This document shows positions 58,616 through 60,624 of a stretch of DNA of 64,000 nucleotides, one piece after another; position 1 is the stretch's first letter, and each line of letters begins with the position of its first letter. The stretch covers positions 2,278,001 through 2,342,000 of the forward strand of contig NZ_CP115484.1 of NCBI RefSeq assembly GCF_027627475.1. Reading direction: 5' to 3'. This stretch comes from Paenibacillus sp. SYP-B4298 (lineage in GTDB: Bacteria; Bacillota; Bacilli; Paenibacillales; Paenibacillaceae). The position numbers and the translations under genes were made by a program. Below the pieces are notes generated by a model, which did not search any database, was not told the DNA's origin, and saw nothing but the letters and a program-made list of their open reading frames with translations.

Positions 58616-58644
58616 GTGACAATTCTAGAAAAAATAGATAAAAT
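58616..58644 (+). promoter_or_regulatory. promoter of the agr-like operon
   Basis: -35 GTGACA (58616-58621) and -10 TAAAAT (58639-58644) are 17 bases apart, each five of six to the sigma-A consensus. CAATTCTA occurs at 58605-58612 and 58620-58627 (15 bases start to start), so the copies flank and overlap the -35. The ribosome binding site follows at 58671-58677. Confidence 0.6.
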
Positions 58645-58677
58645 ATACATATAAATATACATGTGGTATTGAGGTGA

Positions 58678-59373
58678 GTGGTTCTGTTCCCTTCTACTCT
58701 GCACGGCTTGATGTTTACCGTTACCTCGTTGCTGGAGTATTTGGCCATCTTTACGCTTACACTGTCCCTGTTCCGATTTAGAGCAGCCGACTACAGATGG
58801 CAGATTGCATTCTCTTGCTTATCGCTGTTGATGGTATCCTACATGACCCGTGCCGGTCTGCTGGCTGAATTTTCTCCGTTTGTTCAAGTGCTGGTACTGA
58901 TTGTGCTGCTCTGGTTTGTGTTTCGCATCCAATTTTTTTATGCGTCGGTCATGTCCGTACTTGGCTTTGTGTTATATGGCACCCTACAGTTATTTATTAT
59001 TTTTGCTGCCCGGCTCGTCTATCGCTGGGCCAACGACATACCTGCTCTCCCGGACAGCAGCATGTTCATCGTAGCGATGCTCACGAGCACCATCTGCCTC
59101 GGTCTGGGGGTCTCCCTGTATCGCCGGGGATGGGGGTACACCTTTGTTCCGCAGCGCACAGATGGCTTCATCAATTATCGCAAGCGGGAAAATTTTCATC
59201 TGCTGCTTGTTGTGCTGATTGCGTTGCTCGCTATTGTCGGTGCCTATTATTTGTCCCATCAGCATTTTCATTACTGGATGGCCATGACGATCATTATGGT
59301 GTTGCTATCCTGTGTATCGCTACTGTTCATGCGGGCCTCCAATCTAAAGGATAGAAGTGAGAATATATGGTAG
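58678..59373 (+). CDS. seven-helix membrane protein, kinase-less AgrC-like candidate
   Basis: A 231-residue protein made almost wholly of membrane helices, about seven, with short loops and a brief charged tail (ASNLKDRSENIW). Size and topology match the sensor half of AgrC-type peptide receptors, but the DHp and ATPase kinase domains are missing: the frame stops and agrB overlaps it by seven bases. Homology to AgrC is not established from sequence, only position and topology. The start is uncertain: GTG 58678 abuts GAGGTGA, a CTG at 58684 has better spacing and ATG 58711 is also in frame. It is the first gene of the agr-like operon. Confidence 0.7.
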   Translation: MVLFPSTLHGLMFTVTSLLEYLAIFTLTLSLFRFRAADYRWQIAFSCLSLLMVSYMTRAGLLAEFSPFVQVLVLIVLLWFVFRIQFFYASVMSVLGFVLYGTLQLFIIFAARLVYRWANDIPALPDSSMFIVAMLTSTICLGLGVSLYRRGWGYTFVPQRTDGFINYRKRENFHLLLVVLIALLAIVGAYYLSHQHFHYWMAMTIIMVLLSCVSLLFMRASNLKDRSENIW

Positions 59374-59891
59374 ATGAGTATGCTGCGCGCCTGGCCGCAG
59401 CCATTAAGAGGACAGCGCCAGACAGCAAGGCAAGCGCAGAGGTTATCCAGTATGGCGCTATCATGCTGTTCAATGGCAGCGCGGTTCTAGTCTCTGTACT
59501 ATTACTATGCGGGCTTGCCGGCAAGCTGACACACGGCATGATTGTCCTGATCGCCTACGCCTTACTCCGTTTTTGCACCGGAGGGTTTCATTTCCGCTCT
59601 GCACTGGTCTGCTATCTATATTCGACCGGGGTGCTGACAGCGATTGCTCTCGCACCGCTGACTGCAGCAAGCAGCCCGTACCTTACTGCAGCGAGTCTGG
59701 TGCTGGTGCTCCTGTTCGCTCCATCCGATCTGGAGCAGCACACCCGAATTCCGCAAGCTTACTACCTTCATCTGAAGGTGCTTGCCGCGATGTTGGTTTC
59801 ACTCAATTTTATTATAGATTCTAATCATCTTGCATGGACAGCATGTGTACAAGCTCTTACTTTAATTAAACGAAGGAGGAATATCTCATGA
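59367..59891 (+). CDS. agrB: AgrB-like peptide-processing membrane protease
   Basis: A 174-residue AgrB-family membrane protein. The two catalytic residues are in place: His in CTGGFHFRSALVCYL and Cys seven residues later. The surrounding helices (about six) match the family. AgrB cuts the AgrD propeptide at its C-terminal side and catalyses ring closure through an acyl-enzyme at the Cys. It overlaps the upstream membrane protein by seven bases, and its stop overlaps the ATG of the agrD-like gene (ATGA), so the three are tightly coupled. Confidence 0.9.
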   Translation: MVDEYAARLAAAIKRTAPDSKASAEVIQYGAIMLFNGSAVLVSVLLLCGLAGKLTHGMIVLIAYALLRFCTGGFHFRSALVCYLYSTGVLTAIALAPLTAASSPYLTAASLVLVLLFAPSDLEQHTRIPQAYYLHLKVLAAMLVSLNFIIDSNHLAWTACVQALTLIKRRRNIS

Positions 59892-60046
59892 AGAAGGTCA
59901 ACAACTCTAAGAAGACCAAAAAAGCACTCATCTGGACGGCTTCGATCGCCGCATCTCTTCTTGCTTCCGTAGCCAGCGCTTCTGTATCGGTCGCTTCCCC
60001 TTGGTGGAACCATCGTCCGGAGCCGCCTAAGGAACTACTGGACTAG
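59888..60046 (+). CDS. agrD: AgrD-like autoinducer propeptide without cysteine
   Basis: A 52-residue peptide. It has a basic amphipathic leader (MKKVNNSKKTKKALIW), a hydrophobic Ala/Ser/Val stretch and the core-plus-tail VASPWWNHRPEPPKELLD. The tail PEPPKELL matches the conserved acidic AgrD tail (PKEL) that AgrB recognises. There is no cysteine. By aligning PKEL with S. aureus AgrD, cleavage is expected after Asn41, and Ser37 is then four residues before the end, so a five-residue serine lactone (Ser-Pro-Trp-Trp-Asn) is predicted. AAGGAGG lies eight bases before the ATG. Overlap with agrB supports coupling. Confidence 0.85.
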   Translation: MKKVNNSKKTKKALIWTASIAASLLASVASASVSVASPWWNHRPEPPKELLD

Positions 60047-60228
60047 TCCTTTGCATCATGGAGTGTCAACATCGGAGGGGGCAAGCCCTGGTAGTAAGAC
60101 TCCATCCAGCCGCCCCCTATCCTAGCTCTCGTTCGTGGCATGCTCCGACAGCGGATATAGGTTGAAGATTGCCGGAATATGTGCCATCATGCAAGAAGCC
60201 CAATCCAGAAAACAAAGGTTGAGATGGT

Positions 60229-60624
60229 GTGGATAACAAATGGATACCAGTTCTGGCATTGCCGGATGCGACGCCCGAATTTTTAAAGATTTCCGATATT
60301 TGCTATACCTCACTAAAAAGGGGGAAAATCATATTTCATACGTTGGGCAAAGACTACCAGCTCATATCCAATATTGAAGAGCTGTACAGTCTTTTGTATA
60401 CTTTTGAATTTCGCAAGACTGACCGCGGAACATTAGTGCATATTGCCAACATGGTGCACTTTGACGAGAGCTACCGCAAAATATACTTTGACCGAATGAT
60501 TACAAAGCATTCCAAGTATGCGACCGTATCATCGAACAATATCTCCAATGTCGTCAAATTCATGCGTGAACGAGATAGACAGCCTGCCCCAGATCATCCC
60601 TTACCTATGAACAAGCTGCCTTAG
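60229..60624 (+). CDS. stand-alone LytTR-type DNA-binding protein
   Basis: A 131-residue protein consisting of a LytTR-like DNA-binding domain with a short N-terminal extension. ISDICYTSLKRGKIIFHTLG, YQLISNIEELYSLL, RGTLVHIANMVHFDE and KYATVSSNNISNVVKFM follow the beta-strand pattern of AgrA and LytR DNA-binding domains. The receiver domain of AgrA is absent. It starts at GTG 60229, about ten bases after AAAGG. It lies 183 bases after agrD on the same strand and is the probable transcriptional output of the locus. How it would be activated without phosphorylation is unknown. Confidence 0.75.
   Translation: MDNKWIPVLALPDATPEFLKISDICYTSLKRGKIIFHTLGKDYQLISNIEELYSLLYTFEFRKTDRGTLVHIANMVHFDESYRKIYFDRMITKHSKYATVSSNNISNVVKFMRERDRQPAPDHPLPMNKLP

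Follow-up and report, generated by a model that had tools for sequence, protein, structure and literature searches.

A recurrent kinase-less agr-like cassette in Paenibacillus and its relatives pairs AgrB and AgrD with a seven-helix membrane protein and a lone LytTR protein

A compact four-gene cassette was analyzed in a 64,000-nucleotide (nt) stretch of the genome of Paenibacillus sp. SYP-B4298 (the window; NZ_CP115484.1, positions 2,278,001-2,342,000 of a single-contig genome of 6.26 Mb), and all positions given for it are those of the window. Four open reading frames (ORFs) on the + strand, at 58678-60624 and thus within 2 kb, encoded in this order a seven-transmembrane (7TM) protein, an AgrB, an AgrD and a lone LytTR protein. 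The agr system is the standard example of a two-component quorum sensor for peptides. Here, Pfam searches revealed no kinase among the four ORFs or the two neighboring genes, and no AgrC was present in the locus. The cassette is a recurrent and widespread kinase-less type of agr and not a single curiosity. The analysis made it rather probable that the gene set forms a complete unit for peptide signalling, with a receptor uncoupled from any kinase, and that the 7TM protein acts on the lone LytTR protein by touching it directly.

The coordinates and identities of the four products agreed with a preliminary description made from the sequence of the window (positions and family matches in Table 1). 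As that description had it, the four genes lay in a row on one strand and the first three overlapped, by 7 nt between 7TM and AgrB and by 4 nt between AgrB and AgrD, followed by a gap of 182 nt before the LytTR gene. The 231-residue protein, described as an all-helix membrane protein without a kinase, gave an AlphaFold model of seven helices (22-row family alignment, pLDDT 85, pTM 0.82), and neither a Pfam or NCBIfam match above cut-off nor a kinase domain was found in it. No structural relative of this model was detected in the PDB or a viral structure library at E up to 0.001, and the 7TM family profile had no match among PDB sequences at E up to 1. The His and Cys of AgrB noted seven residues apart were H75 and C82, both invariant in all 20 AgrBs aligned, and the 52-residue AgrD-like peptide matched an AgrD family. 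The LytTR assignment also held; no receiver domain was found in this protein by Pfam, and the comparison AgrA of locus L087 carried both receiver and LytTR domains.

To describe the distribution of the cassette, AgrB loci were sampled from 22 places in 7 genomes of the genus and from the other 61 of 77 places in a 59-genome sample of the GTDB family. These 61 places corresponded to 59 stretches, and one of them (L143, from a place below the family cut-off) contained no AgrB by our own model, which left 80 loci for classification. To be counted, a 7TM gene had to lie on the same strand no more than 600 nt away, a kinase-like ORF likewise no more than 3.5 kb away, and a lone LytTR gene within 1.5 kb. 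A 7TM gene was present at 70 of the 80 loci, and 59 loci had both 7TM and lone LytTR genes, so that the four-gene order proposed for comparison in other genomes did recur. Unlike in agr, about three quarters of the sampled AgrB loci in the family thus have a membrane protein without a kinase together with a lone LytTR. A kinase without 7TM occurred at 6 of the 80 loci (five of them with a receiver-LytTR protein), and neither at 4. Of the loci with 7TM, only 2 of 70 had a kinase-like ORF nearby, compared to 6 of the 10 without it; the preliminary description had named an agrCA pair normally lying alongside as the case that would refute a kinase-less locus, and this case was not seen. The two exceptions (L061 and L062) were orthologous loci with a kinase-like ORF of 556-581 amino acids (aa) after the LytTR gene. 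At the level of the order, 149 genomes from 38 genera were sampled; the 7TM profile matched 104 of these genomes, which represented 28 genera, and one genome alone had 19 matches. Ten named loci comprised eight with 7TM, AgrB and lone LytTR (Paenibacillus pinihumi, P. roseus, P. sabuli, P. mesophilus and Cohnella laeviribosi), one with kinase-fused 7TMs (Chengkuizengella marina) and one with 7TM and AgrB only. At one locus (L074, 4714-4959) the AgrB consisted of short fragments of 81 and 54 aa and looked broken, with the 7TM, AgrD and LytTR frames open.

Whole-genome searches of the strain itself detected four AgrBs, four AgrDs, four 7TM proteins of this type and six LytTR matches, and four of the six LytTRs stood in cassettes ordered 7TM-AgrB-AgrD-LytTR, namely the window copy and three others. 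Since this order recurred three more times in the genome and in most sampled AgrB loci of the family, the arrangement is more than chance. The identity between the window copy and the other three was 24-26% for 7TM, 22-29% for LytTR and 26-37% for AgrB, low values which indicated that the four cassettes are old copies. There were 15 GHKL matches in the genome, mostly in long frames, all of them more than 100 kb away from each cassette.

The 7TM protein looks like a peptide receptor module, as judged from the company that the domain keeps in other lineages. In the genus Chengkuizengella, histidine kinases of 456-477 aa encoded next to AgrB carried a fused 7TM domain, and the kinase ATPase domain was confirmed by Pfam in both fusions tested. 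Six such ORFs were found in three loci (L144, L145 = L075, and L146), none with a lone LytTR and each with a further kinase-like gene on the other strand, and the two loci fetched from the genus with unfused 7TM (L147 and L148) each had a lone LytTR. Outside the taxonomic class, 15 places were listed and 14 loci were fetched; the kinase was fused to the membrane domain (one locus, two ORFs) or lay directly beside it in 13 of these 14 loci, and AgrB was present in 12. With the kinase fused or adjacent and AgrB nearby, the domain was taken as the sensor part of agr-linked kinases in these lineages. Most of these loci (L205-L211 and L213-L217) appeared to carry a split AgrC, with the sensor (158-190 aa in nearly all) and the kinase (about 290-310 aa) encoded by separate neighboring genes, mostly together with AgrB and a receiver-LytTR gene.

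The LytTR protein in turn looks directly coupled to the 7TM protein. Without a receiver, it offers a kinase nothing to act on. In the AgrA motif FFRCHNS, R198, N201 and S202 interact with DNA, as stated in the part of the source available (PMC4227749). The Asp65-Arg66 pair of the window protein was conserved among lone LytTRs, and the column aligned with AgrA N201 held Arg in 85 of 100 of them (window R66 included; one is the cut protein of L188). The same column held Arg in only 1 of 14 GGDEF-EAL, 1 of 6 helix-turn-helix (HTH) and 1 of 7 PAS-kinase fusions, counts that are not independent, the fusions belonging to few lineages. The absence of Arg fits a loss of DNA binding in the fusions with another role of the domain kept. 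Nine loci (L155, L163, L184-L189 and L196) read 7TM-AgrB-LytTR-GGDEF-EAL, two of the fusion proteins being called by Pfam and the other seven by model match, length and motif; such proteins beside 7TM and AgrB form a possible pathway from peptide to cyclic di-GMP (c-di-GMP). An HTH-LytTR gene was complete in six loci (Pfam on one) and probably also present in L188, where it was cut by the end of the stretch, and a 7TM gene adjoined it in five of the seven (L155, L184 on the other strand, L186, L187 and L188). Soluble PAS-histidine kinases with an N-terminal LytTR domain were also observed, in L192-L195, L197, L200 and L203 (Pfam on L192).

Compared to classical agr (agrBDCA), the cassette shares AgrB and AgrD, a ring nucleophile, a multi-helix membrane protein as the proposed receptor and a LytTR output domain, but it has neither the AgrC histidine kinase nor a receiver on the LytTR protein, and its 7TM has no profile match to the AgrC sensor of Bacilli. 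In the LytTR Regulatory Systems, according to the portion of the account available (PMC6193735), LytTR regulators are held by membrane inhibitors (HdrRM, BrsRM); the membrane proteins described are of the DUF3021 or DUF2154 type, and ones without these domains are counted as well. The cassette resembles these systems, as they appear in that portion, in the receiver-less LytTR regulator encoded with a membrane protein lacking an enzymatic domain, and differs from them in the built-in AgrB and AgrD and in the gene order, membrane gene first and regulator last (PMC6193735). No Pfam match of the window 7TM to DUF3021 or DUF2154 was found at E up to 10. With neither the kinase and receiver of agr nor a DUF3021 or DUF2154 membrane protein, the cassette is a full member of neither system; judged by its gene content, it joins the signal production of agr to an output like that of the LytTR Regulatory Systems. 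Searches of open-access papers found no description of the four-gene system, which does not by itself show its absence from print; the nearest was a 2014 remark on phage AgrC-like proteins without an ATPase domain, in the part of that source available (PMC3901668). In the genome of the strain, another LytTR gene at about 5215 kb (L023, 3381-4350), with no receiver match in the 177 aa tested, was followed by a small membrane-protein ORF and resembled an ordinary LytTR Regulatory System. This membrane protein, taken by eye as a DUF3021 partner, was not recognized by Pfam even at E up to 1, and that assignment was rejected.

The following mechanism is proposed. AgrB would cut and cyclise AgrD to a small Ser-lactone peptide, which the 7TM protein may bind as receptor, given that it is homologous to the sensor parts of kinases linked to agr. 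By analogy with the LytTR Regulatory Systems, the 7TM protein would control LytTR by contact, probably keeping it at the membrane in an inactive state up to the binding of the peptide; the sign of this regulation rests on their precedent, as far as the available part of the source describes it (PMC6193735). The freed LytTR would then bind DNA, its own promoter probably among the targets.

The preliminary description held that signalling bypasses phosphotransfer, either by direct contact or through a kinase shared from elsewhere. The bypass remained the best reading of this kinase-less locus, and the shared kinase became the less likely branch because the LytTR has no receiver to phosphorylate and the 7TM-kinase fusion loci have no lone LytTR. 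Recruitment by the 7TM protein of a kinase encoded elsewhere, with phosphate still in use as in the sensor-plus-kinase pairs outside the taxonomic class, would agree with the separate kinase gene adjoining the membrane domain beside AgrB in most of those loci, with the GHKL matches in the strain and with the kinase-like ORF after the LytTR gene in L061 and L062. However, this is unlikely, given the lack of a receiver, the presence of a kinase-like ORF near so few 7TM loci, and the distance of the GHKL proteins from the cassettes. That the kinase is merely hidden, by decay of an agr locus or by an error of assembly, is supported by its absence itself and nothing more, and is so improbable as to be nearly negligible: the ORFs are intact and overlapping in a single-contig genome, and the same layout appears in three paralogous loci and most of the family loci sampled. 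A frameshift, an assembly error or a hidden kinase was rejected on the basis of this recurrence and the GHKL search.

Other functions were also weighed. The peptide might be an antimicrobial, the 7TM protein its immunity or export partner and LytTR merely the operon regulator; the tandem 7TM genes without AgrB in L149-L153 resemble collections of immunity genes, and cassettes lie on phages and plasmids. We regard this as improbable, since 7TM domains fused to histidine kinases beside AgrB fit sensing, AgrD matches an autoinducer family (TIGR04223), and LytTR-GGDEF-EAL outputs fit signalling better than immunity. It is also quite doubtful that 7TM and LytTR are encoded together without touching and are linked by another cytoplasmic partner or a second messenger. 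LytTR domains on soluble kinases with no 7TM nearby suggest that the domain may sense something else, but the cassette contains no further conserved protein, and the LytTR domain stays beside 7TM genes when the output domain changes. Several observations nevertheless count against direct control of LytTR by a 7TM receptor, in addition to the dependence among the fusion counts above. A lone LytTR was missing within 1.5 kb at 11 of the 70 loci with 7TM, the tandem 7TM genes of L149-L153 had no AgrB of their own, and no 7TM lay in the fetched stretch for all seven LytTR-PAS-kinase proteins and 5 of 14 LytTR-GGDEF-EAL proteins. The 7TM matches outside the taxonomic class were weak (E 1.4e-10 to 8e-6, in 13 genomes of a 299-genome phylum sample), and kinship of the 7TM with the AgrC sensors of Bacilli found no support, the comparison giving no profile match and staying at about the level of the AgrB control. 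Direct repeats immediately before the -35 element of the operon mark the LytTR Regulatory Systems, but they were not established here: a search over 94 upstream regions ranked a spacing of 21 highest of 23 spacings with a z of only 2.7, and direct repeats sought upstream of the window cassette gave nothing clear. In L149 (11847-16235), six 7TM genes stood in a row and may be spare receptors, eavesdroppers or immunity genes.

More tentatively, and with somewhat less than even confidence, direct contact could be extended to a phosphorylation-free class of peptide signalling between cells in Paenibacillales and some phages and plasmids of this group. In this class, a stand-alone 7TM receptor would contact a LytTR adaptor with interchangeable outputs, such as DNA binding alone, c-di-GMP turnover (GGDEF-EAL) or a fused HTH, and the kinase-fused and kinase-paired receptors would be parallel uses of the same sensor. 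If true, the cassette would represent a different logic for peptide sensing and a natural LytTR Regulatory System with a built-in ligand, with a direct route from peptide to c-di-GMP in some genera and possibly a communication device of phages.

The signal precursor itself was examined for its ring residue. In Staphylococcus aureus, the ring Cys lies ten residues before the Pro of PxEL, and the ring of autoinducing peptide I (AIP-I) consists of five residues. In the window AgrD, Ser 37 occupies the place of this Cys at the same spacing, and Ser stood there in all four AgrDs of the genome. A Ser at the ring position leads to the expectation of a lactone; hence the precursor is predicted to give a Ser-lactone ring and not to be defective. 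The preliminary description of a Cys-free AgrD needs correction in this respect, as the ring residue is not missing. Among the 22 loci of the genus, 17 AgrDs had Ser (two shifted by one place), 2 Cys and 2 the Lys type described below, and 1 was not found. Ser-lactone rings have been reported for the S. intermedius group, as has the lactone nature of GBAP, in the part of the source available (PMC3673130). The S. pseudintermedius AIP and Enterococcus faecalis GBAP resemble the present case in that Ser replaces Cys at the ring; as far as that part goes, their systems are agr/fsr operons with AgrC/FsrC and AgrA/FsrA, whereas here neither kinase nor receiver is present (PMC3673130).

A third class of AgrD was observed in 32 of 111 classified precursors, with no Cys, Ser or Thr at or adjoining the ring place. 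In 31 of the 32, about half of which are close relatives within one genus, a Lys stood one place after the ring position, and the 32nd (L142) was mis-anchored and also showed Lys; such a Lys was found in only 1 of 70 AgrDs with Cys or Ser at the ring. The loci were L057, L059, L091, L095, L097, L104, L111, L123, L124, L126, L129, L133, L135, L137, L141, L144, L146, L147, L157 and L164-L175. By eye, the phage AgrDs (Abouo, Emery and Harrison) also look like this class. The pattern hints at a Lys-linked (lactam) signal ring.

Copies of the cassette were detected on mobile elements. Brevibacillus phages Abouo (L218) and Emery (L219) carried 7TM, AgrB, AgrD and LytTR genes, Emery with two 7TMs, and the Abouo cassette began about 0.3 kb from an integrase gene. 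The Abouo LytTR protein matched PF04397 at 9.7e-7; that of Emery reached 0.0016 (below cut-off) and matched our own LytTR model at 3.7e-12. In Paenibacillus phage Harrison (L222), the four cassette genes lay near a serine recombinase, the last gene matching the LytTR model at 2.2e-10, and phages Davies and Paisley also gave matches in the search. Three records of Paenibacillus plasmids matched and both of those examined carried the gene set; one plasmid LytTR had no Pfam match and fitted our LytTR model at 9.7e-15. A search of IMG/VR with the window AgrB protein found no relatives. For phages Davies, Emery and Abouo, AgrB, AgrD and possible AgrC homologues without an ATPase domain had been noted in 2014, in the part of that account available (PMC3901668). 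These genes agree with the present ones in AgrB, AgrD and ATPase-less membrane proteins, and Abouo and Emery share 7TM and LytTR with the cassette; the available part of that account mentions neither a LytTR gene nor a signalling route of the membrane protein (PMC3901668). The cassettes of Abouo, Emery and Harrison form a possible phage communication system.

Table 1. Features of the cassette in the window
Feature	Position	Strand	Remarks
Weak sigma-70-like site, GTGACA-17-TAAAAT	58616..58644	+	consensus scan, near shuffled expectation
7TM membrane protein, proposed peptide receptor	58678..59373	+	231 aa, GTG start; no kinase domain
AgrB-type membrane peptidase (H75, C82)	59367..59891	+	174 aa; PF04647 3.6e-18
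AgrD-type signal precursor	59888..60046	+	52 aa; TIGR04223 1.1e-8, above cut-off
Codons Ser37-Pro-Trp-Trp-Asn, predicted lactone ring if five-residue	59996..60010	+	Ser ten residues before Pro of PxEL; inference
Lone LytTR protein, no receiver	60229..60624	+	131 aa; PF04397 4.9e-7, above cut-off

RNA structure sought in the 182-nt gap before the LytTR gene was no better than in shuffled sequences (z 0.55). Position 58616, where the preliminary description began the locus, belongs to the first hexamer of the weak sigma-70-like site; the consensus scan for such sites returned 10 against 7.5 in shuffles (sd 2.9). The cassette was flanked by genes on the - strand, with an HD-domain gene upstream and a NUDIX gene downstream (Pfam).

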